A stretch of DNA of 64,000 nucleotides from Rhodococcus sp. 06-462-5 (GTDB lineage: Bacteria > Actinomycetota > Actinomycetes > Mycobacteriales > Mycobacteriaceae), in the NCBI RefSeq assembly GCF_002258315.1, contig NZ_NOYD01000046.1:73638-137637 (forward strand), in the 5' to 3' direction. How positions within the stretch are numbered: the first letter of the stretch is position 1; every line of letters begins with the position of its first letter. The notes below the pieces were generated by a model. It was given only the letters and a program-made list of their open reading frames with translations, made no database searches and was not told where the DNA came from. Made by a program: the position numbers and the translations under genes. Below are positions 30,173-36,487 of this stretch, piece after piece.

Positions 30173-31717
30173 TTGAGTGGCACCACTGCGGAGAAGCTGG
30201 CCGAACTACGGACGAAGCTCGAACAGGCCAAGGAACCGGCCGGCGAGATCGGCGTAGCGAAGCGGGCGAAGAAGGGCATCCCCAGTGCCCGCGATCGCGT
30301 CAAGTCGCTGCTCGATCCCGGTAGCTTCGTCGAGATCGGCGCACTGGTGAAGGCCCCGAACGACCCGGCCGCCCTCTACAGCGACGGCGTCGTCACCGGC
30401 CACGGAACCGTCGACGGTCGTCCGATCGCGGTGTTCTCACACGATCAGACGGTGTTCGGCGGGACCGTCGGCGAGATGTTCGGCCGCAAGGTCGCCGGAA
30501 TCATGGACTTCGCGATCAAGATGGGTTGCCCGGTCGTCGGCATCAACGACTCCGGTGGAGCTCGTGTGCAGGACGCGGTGACGTCCCTGGCCTGGTACGC
30601 CGAGCTGGGTCGACGCCACGAGGCGCTGTCCGGTCTGTGCCCGCAGATCTCCCTGATCCTCGGCAAGTGTGCCGGTGGAGCGGTGTACGCCCCGATCAAC
30701 ACCGACATCGTGGTCGCCACCGAAGAGGCGTACATGTTCGTCACCGGTCCGGACGTCATCAAGTCCGTCACCGGCGAGGACGTCAGCCTCGACGAACTGG
30801 GTAGTGCCCGCGTCCAGGCCATCAACGGCAACGTGCACCATGTGGCCGCCGACGAGAAGGCCGCTTTCGAGTGGATCCGGAACTACCTGAGCTACATGCC
30901 GTCGAGCTGCCAGGAAGAGTCGCCGGTGATCAACCCGGGGCTCGAGCCGGAGATCACCGAATCCGATCGCAAGCTCGATTCGTTCATGCCCGACGCCGAC
31001 AACGCCGGCTACGACATGCACGACATCATCCTGCGCATCTTCGACGACGGTGAATTCCACGAACTGTCGGGCCAGACGGCACCGAACGTCATCACCGGCT
31101 TCGCCCGCGTCGACGGCCGGCCGGTGGGCATCGTCGGCAATCAGCCGATGCACCTTTCCGGGGCTCTCGACGCCAAGGCCGCGGACAAATGCGCCCGGTT
31201 CATCCGCCTCAGCGATGCGTACAACATTCCGATCATCTTCCTAGTCGACACGCCTGGCTTCCTGCCCGGCGTCGACCAGGAGACCCTCGGCGTCATCCAT
31301 CGCGGTGGCCGCTTCATCTTCTCGTTCGTCGAGGCGACGGTGCCGAAACTGACCGTGGTGATTCGTAAGTCGTACGGCGGTGGATACGCGGTGATGGGCT
31401 CGAAGCAGCTCGGATCCGACATCAATCTCGCCTGGCCGACCGCTCGCATCGCCGTCATGGGTGCCGAAGGTGCCATCAACATCATGAGTCGTAAACAACT
31501 CGCCGAGGCCGGCGAGAACGCACCGGCTCTGCGCAAGCAGCTCATCAACTTCTACAACGAGCATGTGGCAACGCCCTGGATCGCCGCCGAACGTGGTTAC
31601 ATCGACGCGGTCATCGAGCCCTCACAAACGCGCCTCGAAATTCGTAAGGCCCTGCACATACTCAGGGACAAAGAAGTGCACAAGAGTCCGCGCAAACACT
31701 CGTTGCTCCCGATCTAG
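30173..31717 (+). CDS. accD4: Acyl-CoA carboxylase carboxyltransferase subunit AccD4
   Basis: A 514-residue biotin-dependent carboxyltransferase beta subunit. Together with AccA3/AccD5/AccE in mycobacteria it makes the alpha-carboxyacyl-CoA extender used by Pks13. Visible motifs are [22 protein letters not shown], the first oxyanion loop [22 protein letters not shown], and the second site FLPGVDQE with [11 protein letters not shown]. The start is a TTG at 30173, 3 nt after the pks13 stop, with GGAG 8 nt upstream. It is the last gene of the operon; a pair of palindromic repeats begins 56 nt after its stop and may terminate transcription. Confidence 0.95.
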
Positions 31718-31772
31718 TCAGAGCTAGGTGGGCGGTCCGTCGTATTCGGGGGTCGCTCCGCTCCCGTTCGCG

Positions 31773-31884
31773 TCAATGGACCACTGCACCGGTCAGACGT
31801 ATGCAATGGTCCATTCACGCATCAGCCGCGGCTGTTTCAATGGACCACTGCACCGGTCAGATGTGTTCGATGGTCCATTCACGC
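31773..31884. repeat. Palindromic repeat pair A (two 48-bp units, 64-bp period)
   Basis: Two 48-bp units at 31773-31820 and 31837-31884 match at 44 of 48 positions by hand count and are separated by 16 nt. Each has inverted arms, AATGGACCA near the 5' end and TGGTCCATT near the 3' end, around a shared core reading GGTCAGA(C/T)GT. The spacer contains the perfect 12-bp palindrome CAGCCGCGGCTG. The pair lies between accD4 and the convergent AbiEi-like gene, whose stop codon falls inside the second unit. Related units occur at 33043-33154. Confidence 0.85.
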
Positions 31885-32841
31885 GGTCGACTCGCGCGGA
31901 ACCATCACCACATCCGGTCGAGGCCTTGCCAGAGCATGGTGGTAATTCATCCTCAAGTCGTCGAGCACCTGTGTCGGCCGATCGCGGATGTCTTGCGGTG
32001 AATGGGATACGACGATCAGTCCGTGGGCCCGCATTCGGTTGCGTCGGGCCTGTGTCCGCTGGTAGTCGGCCGGTGACAGATGATGGGTTACGGAATCGAT
32101 TTCACGTGCCAGCGCCACGGTGTCGATCCAACCGTCGGTATTGGCGATGAACTCTCCGCTGCGGGCGTAGATGTCGCAGTTGTGCGTCATCGCAGGCAGT
32201 CCGCTTGTTCGGTACAGGCGTTGGTCTTCGAGTTCTGCCACCGAGTGCGCGTTGTCCCGTAACTCGAGAAGTACACGGCGGGTGAGCGCGCTGTAGCGAC
32301 GCGGCCCTTCGGCCAATTCGGTGGCGATCTGGTCGATGGTCACGCCGTCTCGTTGGAGCACCTCGGTCAGCAGGGCGACGCACCGTGCCTCGGATTTCGC
32401 GGCTCGCGTGGCGTCGACCAGTGAACGCACCAGAGGAGCAACTCGGATGCTGCCCTTCGTGACCGGCTTGGGAAGACGCCACGTCCGCTCTGCGCGGACG
32501 AAAGACACCGATGCCCGACGCATCTCCGCGGGTAACAGCAGATGGACGTCCCCGGCGGATCCGTTGGTCCCGTATCCGAACGAATCGAGTCCGACGCAGC
32601 CGGTGATCATGCTCGTCGCTCCGCCGTATGCGAGCGCCGCGGCTGAGCGCTCGAGCGTCGACGGATGTCCGTTGCGCAGCAGTACGACGCCCGGTAGCAA
32701 CCGCTGCCACGGACCGCCGGCCGCGCACCTGCCGTCGATCGCTGCATCACTCACGCCCGCCTCGCGAAGCTGCCTGCGCGTCACGACGCCAGTCGAGCTC
32801 AGGTCGAACAATGAACCCGCATTCCACAGTCGTCTTTTCAT
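31879..32841 (-). CDS. AbiEi-type winged-helix protein with degenerate DUF559/Vsr-like C-terminus
   Basis: A 320-residue protein. The N-terminus (about residues 10-60) reads SSTGVVTRRQLREAGVS followed by I-D-G-R and WQRLLPGVVLL. This is the winged-helix start of AbiEi-like antitoxin domains, common in actinobacteria. The C-terminal part has G-W-I-D240-T-V-A-L-A-R-E247-I-D249, then THHLSPADYQRT, recalling the Vsr/DUF559 endonuclease fold, though the last catalytic Lys/Asp spacing is not standard. No AbiEii toxin gene lies beside it. ATG 32841 is used; the open frame extends to 33534 through non-coding repeats and into emb. It is probably DNA-binding; function is unknown. Both flanks carry the 48-bp palindromes. 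Confidence 0.7.
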   Translation of the reverse strand: MKRRLWNAGSLFDLSSTGVVTRRQLREAGVSDAAIDGRCAAGGPWQRLLPGVVLLRNGHPSTLERSAAALAYGGATSMITGCVGLDSFGYGTNGSAGDVHLLLPAEMRRASVSFVRAERTWRLPKPVTKGSIRVAPLVRSLVDATRAAKSEARCVALLTEVLQRDGVTIDQIATELAEGPRRYSALTRRVLLELRDNAHSVAELEDQRLYRTSGLPAMTHNCDIYARSGEFIANTDGWIDTVALAREIDSVTHHLSPADYQRTQARRNRMRAHGLIVVSHSPQDIRDRPTQVLDDLRMNYHHALARPRPDVVMVPRESTA

Positions 32842-33042
32842 GCCCGAAGAGTGGAATTTCGCACCGACACGTTTGTCGCGTTCAGGCGCTGTCGCGGGTT
32901 GTCTGTGGATAGCCGACCAGGCTGTGAATGGATTGGTTGAGGCCGGTCGTGAGCCGGACGACGCTGTCGGAGTCGGATGATAGGGCCGGCCAGTGGAGTC
33001 GGATGGCGCGATGGCGTCCGCGGTCCCTGCCCCACCGGAAGG
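32842..33042. other. Upstream region of the AbiEi-like gene
   Basis: This is the first part of a 328-nt gene-free gap between the AbiEi-like start and the emb stop. It should contain the AbiEi-like gene promoter. I see no confident hexamers, and no conserved protein in any frame. The rest of the gap is repeat pair B plus 15 nt. Confidence 0.5.
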
Positions 33043-33154
33043 TGAATGGACCATTGACGCGCTCAGACGTATGCAAAGGTCCATTGACCCACAACAGGCC
33101 GAAACGTGAATGGACCCTTGCACGGTCGAGACGTGTGCAAGGGTCCATTGACGC
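33043..33154. repeat. Palindromic repeat pair B (two 48-bp units, 64-bp period)
   Basis: Two units at 33043-33090 and 33107-33154 are related to pair A and again separated by 16 nt. The second has perfect 15-bp arms, AATGGACCCTTGCAC at 33109-33123 and its complement at 33135-33149, with an 11-nt loop containing GAGACGT. The first keeps AATGGACC/GGTCCATT arms and the core CTCAGACGTATG. Pair B ends 15 nt from the emb stop codon, so it could also terminate the emb transcript. Confidence 0.85.
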
Positions 33155-33169
33155 AAAGCGGGCGGGCGG

Positions 33170-36100
33170 TCAGTCCTCGAATACTCGCAGTTGTCCGTCT
33201 TTGTAGAAGCCCGATCGGGTGACGTCTGCGGTTTCGAGTTCAGCGGGCACGGCGCTCGGGTAGTACTGCTCGTAGCGCTCCAACGAACCCCAGTCCCTGG
33301 CCCAGTCGTTGTCGAGGTAGGTGGGGACGGTGACGGGCTTGGCGAGTAGTTCGGACCAGCCCAGGGGGCCGCCGTTCTCGCCGGACTGCCAGGTGTCGGT
33401 GGAGCTGACGGCGAGTGGGCGGTCGGGGAGGATGCGGTATCCGGGTACCTCGGCGACGCCGTTTCGGTGGTCGAAGGGGCGTTGGCACGGGAATTGCAGT
33501 CCGACGGCCCAGTCGAGCAGCACGGGCTGCTCACTGCCGATCATGGTGTTCAGGTTTTCCATCACCGGAACTCGCGGCGGGGTGAATGCGAGCCATTGGT
33601 CGCCGGTGAGGTTGGGGTCGTTGGCGACGATGCGGACGGCGTCGGCGTCGGGTGCGATGTTCGCCAACGGGATTCGGAGGTTGCGCCACGAGGGTGCGGG
33701 TCCGATGTCGCGCGGAAGGTAGGTGCCCTGAGCCTGGACGCTACCGTCGGGCTGACGCTTGCCGTATTCGAGCAGTAGCGACTGTCCGTAGGTGAGGGCT
33801 CCGGTGTCGTCGTAGGACCAGATGCGTCCGGCTGCGGAGAAGACGACCAGGGGAGCGTCGTCGCTGCGGGCGGGTAGTTGGTACCAGCTCGAGGTGGCAG
33901 ACGCGGGCTCCTGGACGCCTTCCTGGTAGGAGCCGAGGACGGGGGTGGTGGCCGGGTCGAGACCGAAGGGCAGGGCGGCGGACGAGCCGTTGACGCCCAC
34001 TTCGCCGGTGCCTCCCGCGGTACCCGAACTCTGGCCTTCCTCGAAGGCGGGTCCGACGGCTTGCTGGTCGGTATTGCCTTGTCCTGGTTTGACTTCCACG
34101 GCGTCGGCGCTGAGGTCGCTGGGAACGCCGTTGGCGGTGAAGTTGCGCAGTGTGCTGCTCGATCCGCCGAGGGGTCCTGCGACGGGGTCGAACTCCTCGG
34201 GCAGCGGGCTCAGCACGCCTGCGTTGGGGTTCGATTCGACGAGGACATCGTTGGCGAGTCCGCACGAATTACCCAGTACCGATTGCACATTCGAGCGGGC
34301 CAACGAATAGGCGGGGTATTGCGAGACGGCTCCCTTGACGAGCGAGAGAATCTCGAAGAGCACCATGATTCCGGCGATGACGGTCAGTGGTGCGGCAGCG
34401 AACTTACGGATGCGTTTGCCGCGCGCGGATGTCGGTTTCGGTTGTGGGGGAGCGTATCCCTCACGTAGGTACTGGAATGCGGCTACGGCGAGGACGAGTC
34501 CGAAGAGGATGAGGAACAGGGTGCCGGATTCGTTGCCGCCCAGCGACACCGTCTTGTCGAACCACGGCACGCCGTAGCTCGAGACGTACCAGTAGCCGTT
34601 GATACCCGAGAAGGACAGTGCGAGAACGAACATCAGTCCGGCGGTGAACAGCGATCGGTTTCGCCGCGAGCGCAGGGCACTGGCCGACACGGCGACGGCC
34701 GTCAGCGCGGCCAGGCCACCGGCGATGCCGGCGTAGGAACCGAAGTGGTGAGTCCACTTGGTGGGGTTGAACATCATGAAGAAGATGGTGCCGAGCACGA
34801 CGCCGAGCAGACGCCAGGCCGGCCCGTTCGCGATGCCGGGGATGCGTCGGCGACGCAGCAGCACGAACAGTGTGGTGAACAGGCACAGGATCATCGTCAG
34901 GAATGCGAAGCGGCGTGCGACCGAGCCGTCGACGGTCTGGACGAAGAGGTAGTAGTAGCGCAGGAAGTCCTGGTACCACGCCTCGTTGGGGCCGATGATG
35001 GTGCGGACTCGGGTGGATTCGATGACCGTCGCGTACGTCTGGTCGGCGAAGACGACGACGAGGACCAGTACGCCGGCTGCGGCCAACGGTGCCAGCATCG
35101 CGAGGGTGCCGACCTGGCGGTGGCGTCGGACGACGATGCGCGCGATGGGCCGGGCCCCGGCGAGAAGCGCTGCCACACACATCAATCCGGTCGGCGCTGC
35201 GGCGAGGGTGAAGGCTCCGATGAGACATGCTGCGGCGGCGGGGAGCAGTCGGCCGGTGGCGATGGATCGTTCCACCGAGCACCAGGTGAGGAGCGCTCCG
35301 AGGGCGACGATCGGTTCGGGGCGCAGACCGTTGTTGTACGGCAGCCAGAACGCGAGGAACACCAGTCCGCCGGTCCACAGGGCGACGTTGGACTTGCGGA
35401 CGGCGCGGCCGAGGCGTGGCACCACCTCACGGCTGATCACCATCCAGCACAGGACGCCTGCGATGAGGGCGGGCAGGCGCATCCACGGGCTGGCGGTCGA
35501 GATCTTGGCGAAGACGGCGAGTACGTCGTAGTACCAGCCGAACGGGGCCTCGGGGACGCCGAACCAACGGAAGTAGTTGGCCATGTAGCCGGAGTGATCG
35601 GCGGCGCGGGCCATCGTGAGCAGATAGCCGTCGTCGGAGGTGTTCGCGCCGACGAAGTGCCAACCGACCAGAGCACCGAGGACGGTGACGTCGACGCCGG
35701 TGAACTTCCACCAGTGCGAGGGGAAGAAGCGGCGATGCGCGCGACCGTCGGTGCCGTCGAGCCGACCGAGTGCGCCGATGGCCAACAAGGTGCAGGCGAT
35801 CGCGAGGATCATGATCAGAGACTTCAGGAGCGTCGGCGACGACGAGAAGCGCGAGTCGACGTCGACGGTGACCGACATGTCGGCCGGGGCCGCGCCGCTG
35901 AGATCGCTGAAGATGCCGACGACCTGGGGACGTAGGTCGCCGTCGAGACGGCCCTGGATCGGTTGGCCGTCGTCATCGGTCAGTCCGGTGAATGCCGCGG
36001 AGGTGTACTGGTCGTTCGAGGTGATCTCGATGGTCGCGCAGCGCGTGCTCTCGACGTCGGCGCGAGGTGCCGTCGCGACGACCACGTTGCGGTCGAGAAC

Positions 36101-36487
36101 GTCGACGTTCGATTCGCCGACGCGAACGAACAGACTGTTCAGTGCCGCGCCTTCACCCTGCGGGGGCGCCGTCGCCAGCAGTAGCCCGCCCGACGCGGGG
36201 AGTGCTGCGACGGCAGAGCACGGGAGGGTCGCGGTGAGGCTCAGGGGTGCCTGGGACACCAGCGGGGCGTCCACGTCCTGCAGGAGGCCGTTCTGCGGCC
36301 ACGCGATGGTGGCGGTGGTCTGAGTGACGGGTGCGAACGGAGTGATCAGCGCGAACAGCACACCGAGAACGCCGGCCACCATGGCGATCAGCCGGGGAAT
36401 TCGTACCTGAGCACGAAGTTCGTCCGAGGCTCGCAGTGGAGCGGGAACGGGTGGACCAGCTGATGAATCTGTCACGACGTCGGGCAC
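33170..36487 (-). CDS. Arabinosyltransferase of the EmbA/EmbB type
   Basis: A 1,105-residue GT-C membrane protein of the ethambutol-target family, which extends arabinan from decaprenyl-phosphoryl-arabinose. An N-terminal jelly-roll ectodomain is followed by the GT-C loop with D285-D286 in NTSDDGYLLTMAR. Many membrane helices follow, then MMFNPTKWTHHFGSYAG and a large C-terminal carbohydrate-binding domain ending near DWARDWGSLERY. It mixes features of mycobacterial EmbB (FADQTYATVIESTRVR, GPAWRLLGVVLGT) and EmbA (RIWSYDDTGALTYGQSL), so I do not force a symbol. It starts with GTG at 36487. It is the last gene of the dprE1-emb unit, 76 nt after the preceding emb. Confidence 0.93.
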   Translation of the reverse strand: MPDVVTDSSAGPPVPAPLRASDELRAQVRIPRLIAMVAGVLGVLFALITPFAPVTQTTATIAWPQNGLLQDVDAPLVSQAPLSLTATLPCSAVAALPASGGLLLATAPPQGEGAALNSLFVRVGESNVDVLDRNVVVATAPRADVESTRCATIEITSNDQYTSAAFTGLTDDDGQPIQGRLDGDLRPQVVGIFSDLSGAAPADMSVTVDVDSRFSSSPTLLKSLIMILAIACTLLAIGALGRLDGTDGRAHRRFFPSHWWKFTGVDVTVLGALVGWHFVGANTSDDGYLLTMARAADHSGYMANYFRWFGVPEAPFGWYYDVLAVFAKISTASPWMRLPALIAGVLCWMVISREVVPRLGRAVRKSNVALWTGGLVFLAFWLPYNNGLRPEPIVALGALLTWCSVERSIATGRLLPAAAACLIGAFTLAAAPTGLMCVAALLAGARPIARIVVRRHRQVGTLAMLAPLAAAGVLVLVVVFADQTYATVIESTRVRTIIGPNEAWYQDFLRYYYLFVQTVDGSVARRFAFLTMILCLFTTLFVLLRRRRIPGIANGPAWRLLGVVLGTIFFMMFNPTKWTHHFGSYAGIAGGLAALTAVAVSASALRSRRNRSLFTAGLMFVLALSFSGINGYWYVSSYGVPWFDKTVSLGGNESGTLFLILFGLVLAVAAFQYLREGYAPPQPKPTSARGKRIRKFAAAPLTVIAGIMVLFEILSLVKGAVSQYPAYSLARSNVQSVLGNSCGLANDVLVESNPNAGVLSPLPEEFDPVAGPLGGSSSTLRNFTANGVPSDLSADAVEVKPGQGNTDQQAVGPAFEEGQSSGTAGGTGEVGVNGSSAALPFGLDPATTPVLGSYQEGVQEPASATSSWYQLPARSDDAPLVVFSAAGRIWSYDDTGALTYGQSLLLEYGKRQPDGSVQAQGTYLPRDIGPAPSWRNLRIPLANIAPDADAVRIVANDPNLTGDQWLAFTPPRVPVMENLNTMIGSEQPVLLDWAVGLQFPCQRPFDHRNGVAEVPGYRILPDRPLAVSSTDTWQSGENGGPLGWSELLAKPVTVPTYLDNDWARDWGSLERYEQYYPSAVPAELETADVTRSGFYKDGQLRVFED

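Follow-up and report, generated by a model that had tools for sequence, protein, structure and literature searches.

REPs are found at gene ends, mainly as inverted dimers with short stems, according to passages of a study in which GTAG REPs have a tyrosine transposase (RAYT) and CGTC REPs apparently have none (PMC3733652). A 2025 REP survey, one passage of which shows three Actinomycetota species, nowhere uses the word Rhodococcus (PMC12306157). The palindromes described here come from Rhodococcus sp. 06-462-5, where four of them lie in the window, i.e. the whole stretch of DNA that was analysed (64,000 nucleotides, contig NZ_NOYD01000046.1, positions 73,638 to 137,637). Like REPs, BIMEs and REPINs, they are multi-copy extragenic palindromes near the 3′ ends of convergent or co-directional genes, often paired and in some cases lineage-specific. 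A first-pass annotation of the window had suggested a REP-like family, which holds as to location. REP families of 20–100 units are known, and at least 41 units were counted here. Unlike REPs, with stems of 5–13 bp, the units are 51 nt long and have arms of 18–19 bp, paired ends and a 13-nt loop; unlike the inverted (HH/TT) dimers of REPs, their pairs are direct repeats with a two-valued spacing, at borders that are shared across sequence families. The letters CGTC occur here inside the GCGTC arm ends and are stem-paired, whereas the CGTC or GTAG tag of REPs is unpaired. The combination of short stem, unpaired tag and inverted dimers was not found in these units.

The DUS of Neisseriaceae form dyads at the 3′ ends of genes. 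A repeated sequence, the USS, does so in Haemophilus (PMC5217627, in excerpts), and DUS occur as species dialects distributed with the phylogeny (PMC3630211, in excerpts). The Rhodococcus palindromes resemble such uptake-sequence dialects in having subclade-specific variants (families I, III and IV) at many sites. Unlike uptake sequences, present in thousands of copies of two short words, they number dozens and consist of one 51-bp dyad. In Bradyrhizobium japonicum, the motif GAATCCAT-N23-ATGGATTC forms a spaced palindrome with 52 copies, nearly all of them near a 3′ end (PMC5217627, in excerpts). Its position as a spaced palindrome at 3′ ends is shared, its sequence is another one, and the passages compared mention neither pairing nor spacing classes nor a comparison between orthologous sites. 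I-shaped terminators, which have no U-tract, are treated in a mycobacterial review whose references include papers that, by their titles, contradict one another on the U-tract (PMC12288462, in excerpts). The palindromes resemble these terminators as stem-loops without a U-tract, tens of bp from a stop codon, and differ from them by a conserved sequence, a double unit with preferred spacing and a genome-wide dialect. In titles and abstract beginnings retrieved for Rhodococcus palindromic repeats, REPs, terminators and the arm words, a search that reached few subscription papers, the elements were not described.

The four palindromes and the gene between them

The four palindromes belong to family I. 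They are imperfect palindromes of 51 nt on the forward strand, located at 31770..31820 (unit 1, 84.8 bits with a position weight matrix), 31834..31884 (unit 2, 67.5 bits), 33040..33090 (unit 3, 70.2 bits) and 33104..33154 (unit 4, 70.8 bits). The matrix, trained on 19 copies including these four, gave them 67–85 bits and all other positions of the 64-kb window 5 bits or less; the reversed window, scanned as control, yielded no match above 5 bits. Unit 2 has the orientation of unit 1 and follows it at an offset of 64 bp, as unit 4 follows unit 3. The spacers of 13 nt are located at 31821..31833 and 33091..33103; in a comparison by eye, the spacer of pair 1 varied across species more than its units. 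The first-pass annotation had placed four units here with a period of 64 bp in both pairs, which is correct. Its unit length of 48 bp and gap of 16 nt are to be replaced by 51 and 13 nt, the natural unit as judged from the whole family being GCGTSAATGGACC...AGACGT...GGTCCATTSACGC. The conserved internal core that it had pointed out is right for family I: AGACG is present in 62 of 64 covariance-model units of the own genome (G000, 5.76 Mb) and genome G021. Hairpins of about −16 to −34 kcal/mol are predicted for the four units. Folded in silico, pair 2 forms two hairpins; in pair 1 the two outer arms pair with each other, as do the two inner ones. An Rfam scan of positions 31000–34000 gave no match up to E 1.

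Pair 1 sits between the convergent ends of an accD4-type carboxyltransferase gene (30173..31717, forward strand, Pfam PF01039) and the gene of an AbiEi-like protein of 320 aa (31879..32841, reverse strand), a neighbour outside the element. Unit 1 starts 52 bp downstream of the accD4 stop codon, and the right edge of unit 2 covers the final 6 bases, including the stop codon, of the AbiEi-like gene. Pair 2 is located between the start of the AbiEi-like gene, 198 bp away from unit 3, and the 3′ end of an emb arabinosyltransferase gene (33170..36487, reverse strand, Pfam PF04602/PF14896/PF17689), with unit 4 lying 15 bp downstream of the emb stop codon.

The AbiEi-like gene is a bystander. Its bracketing by two pairs is explained by the gene end that faces each side, at the accD4/abiEi and the abiEi/emb border. 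Of 58 emb loci compared, 42 came from Rhodococcus-type records and 16 from other genera; an AbiEi-like homologue was present in 31 of the former and in none of the latter. At 21 of these 31 loci, the family I matrix gave no unit above 18 bits. Within the own genome, 18 of 20 examined sites (of 27) have other neighbours, and two further AbiEi-like homologues, on contigs C17 and C37, have no unit among the matches listed. The idea of a site acted on by the enclosed gene product, put forward in the first pass, is contradicted by these counts. That the units serve as operator or target of the AbiEi-like protein is very improbable, even though the gene lies between the two pairs and its product matches AbiEi_4 weakly and below threshold (E 0.037; 14.6 bits versus a cut-off of 25): the homologues lack family I units at most loci, and the other unit sites and both paralogues are located elsewhere. 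No NCBIfam match was obtained for the protein. Homologues occupy the locus without these units, and on this ground a mobile unit bounded by the palindromes, with the AbiEi-like gene as its cargo, was rejected.

The codon-usage caller found a weak coding bias in the AbiEi-like gene. Beyond close relatives, the homologues at this locus are about 44–61% identical; a curated family match was not found. Records L205 and L207 gave no AbiEi-like hit and contain 2.6 and 3.1 kb, respectively, of other sequence between emb and accD4.

Copy number, pairing and spacing

The units are multi-copy, as the REP-like family proposed in the first pass would require. The exact pattern AATGGACC-N(22-32)-GGTCCATT gave 20 distinct palindromes in the own genome and none in the reversed control; a looser pattern gave 34 versus 22 in the reversed control. 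A covariance model built on 19 copies and applied to both strands yielded 81 rows, equivalent to at least 41 unit positions in 27 clusters, a lower bound since 150 of 1845 first-look candidates were scored. The clusters comprise 14 pairs (10 at 64 bp, three at 74–75 bp, one at 94 bp) and 13 single units, four of them no more than 100 bp away from a contig end. Units unique to the window, or scattered singly without a fixed period, had been considered the case for a mere terminator. The genome presents another picture: 28 of the 41 units are paired, 26 of them at 64 or 74–75 bp. Multi-copy, often paired and set at preferred periods, the elements are more elaborate than a simple terminator, as had been supposed.

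Seven clusters of the own genome are located no more than 100 bp from a contig end (C4, C5, C20, C31, C33 twice, C35). These palindromes are thus frequent break points of the assembly, at which partner units may be missing and one or two of the clusters may stand for the same place. The pairs at the ends of C4 and C5 have identical sequences, although grouping by similarity kept their upstream flanks apart. Three members detected by the covariance model are 52-nt variants (G000:C12:9515, G000:C12:11456 and G000:C2:145933), the two on C12 being 1.9 kb apart.

The family I model matched in 22 of 41 genomes, i.e. the own and 40 relatives. The matches were confined to two of 17 genera, the second being represented by one genome with two rows. 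Rhodococcus chromosomes hold a few dozen copies, which leaves most gene ends without one, and many sites carry a single unit. In the single-contig genome G021 (contig C1, 5.34 Mb), a raw count places 21 of 23 unit loci no more than 1.52 Mb from dnaA (3.78 Mb).

Sites of six genomes were tabulated: G000 and G021 (family I), G020 and G051 (family IV), G003 and G049 (family III); G044 stands outside. They were found by covariance or sequence models in which spacing and orientation are unconstrained. The table took 20 of the 27 own-genome clusters, 19 of the 23 counted G021 loci and, from the other four genomes, some of the sites among the matches listed; it omits the own pair at 94 bp and a G021 pair at 120 bp. 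Orthologous sites are counted repeatedly among the resulting 109 sites and 67 spacings between adjacent units. Of the latter, 63 measure 63–65 or 74–75 bp, and the others 30 (probably an overlapping double call), 67, 93 and 96 bp. Of the 67 pairs of adjacent units, 65 have the same orientation. A larger collection comprised 65 pairs that differ from one another by sequence or by flank, with orthologues included and the C4/C5 sequence entered twice; it had the same orientation throughout and spacings of 64 bp (50 pairs), 74–76 bp (eleven) and 63, 65, 85 and 94 bp (one each). Thirty-two of these pairs stem from patterns that fix AGACG, parts of the arms, the same orientation and a period of 52–84, so their orientation, loop and spacing range are partly given by construction. 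The other 33 pairs showed 64 (22), 74 (five), 75 (two) and 63, 65, 85 and 94 bp (one each). A single orthologous group contained spacings of 74, 74, 74, 74, 76 and 85. Family III showed, among the matches listed in further genomes, also 84, 95, 97, 99, 100, 105, 109, 118 and 126 bp.

The two main spacing classes are about one turn of B-DNA apart. Seven borders carry pairs in at least two families; the spacing class differs at five of them and agrees at two. The accD4 border has 64 bp in family I versus 74 bp in families III and IV, the SHMT border 64 (I), 65 (IV) and 74 (III), and two further borders 64 (I) versus 74 (IV). At another border, 65 (IV) stands against 75 (III), where the second family III unit is weak and opposite. 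The agreeing borders have 74/74 and 64/65. At the emb border, the spacing is 64 in family I and 74 in records L209, L212 and L220 (IV) and L210 (III); family III also has 97, 99 and 290 there in L214, L215 and L235, respectively. A periodicity test on distinct spacing values, hand-read from ten genomes and with near-equal values being non-independent, gave p of about 0.0002 for 10.5 bp; periods of 9.5–11.5 bp fitted about equally. The longer family III spacings (93, 96, 97, 99, 100, 109, 118) do not all match whole helix turns. The spacing is consistent with helical phasing and falls short of proof. One old 10-bp indel could be the source of the two classes.

Gene ends and sequence families at shared borders

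Among the 109 sites, 59 lie between convergent, 37 between tandem and three between divergent genes, and 10 have an unknown context. A facing 3′ gene end is found within 130 bp at 98 sites. The median distance is 22 bp to facing 3′ ends (163 ends) and 206 bp to facing starts (45 starts), with genes called by an own codon-usage caller that is crude at locus ends. The window served as a small background: with the same caller it has 48 genes, whose borders are tandem in 38 cases, convergent in 4 and divergent in 5. Unit orientation relative to gene direction at tandem sites was the same in 23 cases and opposite in 13. A Pfam family was assigned to 28 of 29 scanned neighbour proteins of own-genome or G021 sites. 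They include EF-Tu, serine hydroxymethyltransferase, fumarase C, a ClpC-like ATPase, dihydroxy-acid dehydratase, 2-oxoglutarate dehydrogenase, a carboxyltransferase, a cold-shock protein, FtsK, an Mrp-like ATPase, a TatB-like protein and a fatty-acid desaturase. Several of the neighbours are housekeeping genes, a class that is generally highly expressed. Regulators of the LacI and TetR types, an MMPL protein, a Dyp peroxidase and proteins of unknown function occur as well. The 12 nt beside the element contain on average 1.1 and 1.15 T on its two sides (20 own-genome sites); the hairpin followed by a T-run of a canonical intrinsic terminator was not found. Flanks in all three families are C-rich before and G-rich after the element, and T is scarce, with a downstream fraction of 0.07–0.15.

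In other subclades, the two borders of the AbiEi-like gene are occupied by different families: family III (GCTTSAATGGTCC...TCAGATAGCTT...CATTCAAGC) and family IV (GCATGAATGGACC...CTAGACGGTTG...GGTCCATTCATGC). Families I, III and IV are 59–76% alike, and each is 51 nt long. Family II, recognized by eye in R. fascians NBRC 12155 and two other records (L200, L203), has another architecture. In L200, L202 and L203, family II has long inner inverted repeats with arms of 24–30 bp and, as judged by eye, oppositely oriented units. Less closely related Rhodococcus carry, at the emb–abiEi border, single palindromes that differ in sequence; those of L216 and L225 (R. jostii and R. tibetensis), located by a palindrome finder, are also 51 nt long. 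The family III model scored in 16 of 37 genomes of the genus and in none of the family I carriers G000, G007, G008, G009, G011, G012, G013, G016, G018, G021, G023, G024 and G042. Family IV scored best in G044, G051, G020 and G004; the model for this family recognises family I as well, with matches in 30 of the 37 genomes.

Different families occupy the same borders. In a comparison with four genomes, 11 of 20 own-genome sites share their place with another family (five with both flanks matched), as do 11 of 19 G021 sites (nine with both flanks matched); the remaining shared sites have in common the gene that ends there. At least two families are held by 15 of 26 both-flank orthologous groups, and three families by four groups, one of which depends on a doubtful label (a weak G049 unit). 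With G020, 10 shared places were found (five with both flanks) versus a chance expectation of 20 × 17 / 5000 = 0.07, in which the 5000 gene ends are a guess and which a preference for few gene ends would raise. Identities were calculated for the best unit pair per two sites, which favours two-unit sites. Orthologous units of G000 and G021 are 0.97 alike (n = 13), and distinct sites of one genome agree at 0.81–0.88 (own genome 0.85). Ongoing gene conversion was judged less likely because of these site-specific differences (0.97 vs 0.85). Across families, orthologous units of G000 and G020 agree at 0.75 (n = 5), unrelated sites at 0.74; for G000 and G003 the values are 0.63 (n = 3) and 0.59. The orthologous excess over unrelated sites amounts to 0.00–0.04 in eight comparisons of family I with III or IV, and between III and IV it is nil or just below zero. 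Relative to the genes, the units had the same orientation in 10 of the 15 cross-family groups, opposite orientations in four and mixed ones in one, which leaves room for re-colonisation as against change in place.

Arms and loop are conserved to different degrees. Among 25 family I pairs from G000 and G021, each of the two outer arm cores is intact in 24 pairs, compared with 15 and 18 pairs for the two inner ones. The same pattern appears in a larger set of 63 pairs, partly by construction. The loop is near-invariant in family I alone; AGACG occurs in 36 of 61 family IV units, and AGAT in 41 of 51 family III units. Within the arms of family I, compensating changes were no more frequent than in shuffles. 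A comparison of 38 sequences from families I and IV shows the dyad to be preserved by paired changes: 50 two-sided cells were counted versus 22.5 ± 6.2 in shuffles (reached in 0 of 500), a comparison in which related sequences can surpass shuffles even without structure. Slid controls gave 3–11 cells; 18 of the 50 cells represent a single family difference at columns 3/49. An outer-outer and inner-inner arm pairing as structure was rejected, as none of it exceeded the column make-up in 63 pairs (z −1.3 to 0.4). Pairing within units was likewise not above column make-up in this set.

Terminator, mobile repeat or element read in trans

To judge from sequence and position, the elements probably act as bidirectional terminators or insulators. 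In the simplest case, they would be plain U-less, I-shaped intrinsic terminators, in which the hairpin alone stops the polymerase and the sameness of sequence reflects a common origin. Strong hairpins near stop codons, mostly of convergent and rarely of divergent genes, agree with this, and passages of the mycobacterial review describe the I-shaped kind within 50 bp of stop codons, with termination by U-less hairpins being disputed (PMC12288462). The canonical form does not fit the 1.1 T per 12 nt at the 20 own-genome sites. A plain hairpin accounts for position and dyad, but not for length, spacing and dialect: the constant 51 nt across families 59–76% alike, the near-invariant loop of family I, the two-valued spacing and the genome-wide shared sequence are left unexplained, which makes plain terminators a rather doubtful explanation. 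A REP- or MITE-like mobile family may instead have colonised each subclade, favouring gene ends and perhaps older copies, with the pairs as the mobile form. It would fit the multi-copy, intergenic units at gene ends, the subclade-specific families and some of the orientation flips between families; the CGTC class of REPs is reportedly without a dedicated transposase (PMC3733652, in excerpts). A Y1 transposase (Y1_Tnp, PF01797) was matched in one of 13 genomes and had no match in the other 12, the own included, which counts against RAYT-driven REPs alone. A RAYT-mobilised REP was rejected for the own genome on this basis, a CGTC-type REP being unaffected. Colonisation is at odds with the own differences kept by G000 and G021 sites and with the direct repeats in 65 of 67 pairs, a pair type absent or rare in REPs according to passages of the same study (PMC3733652). 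It would need to hit the same borders anew in each subclade and is considered somewhat unlikely.

The preferred, still tentative reading, given a little less than an even chance, is an old Rhodococcus gene-end element. It would consist of paired dyads that terminate or insulate from both sides and are read in trans by a factor drifting together with them. Recognition in trans is suggested by the gene-end sites, the dyad across two families, the 51-nt length in three and the two spacings. The full form of such an element would be two 51-bp dyads in direct repeat on about one helix face. Placed just past the stop codons of mostly convergent genes, it would stop or insulate transcription from both sides. 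The trans factor would recognise arms and loop, probably as a dimeric DNA-binding protein on each dyad, two of which would cooperate; alternatively, it might read RNA hairpins. Helical phasing would be the cause of the spacing. Joint drift of factor and sites would give each subclade its own dialect, by change in place over re-colonisation. In a more specific form, a dedicated sequence-specific factor would bind two dyads on one face and co-evolve with its sites, halting polymerases that arrive from either side at a selection of genes, most of them housekeeping; this version taken by itself is rather unlikely.

It is a matter of dispute how transcription is terminated in high-GC actinobacteria when U-tracts are absent. 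If the dedicated factor were true, a few dozen sites would have changed their sequence together, and their spacing by one turn, at the same borders. High-GC actinobacteria would then possess a factor-dependent, DNA-encoded termination or insulation that is neither Rho-dependent nor intrinsic. A gene-end family with constant length, two spacings and dialects represents a set of ready-made constructs for separating the contributions of hairpin, sequence and bound protein. The different families at the same borders provide a bacterial case for testing the co-evolution of a reader against mobile replacement.
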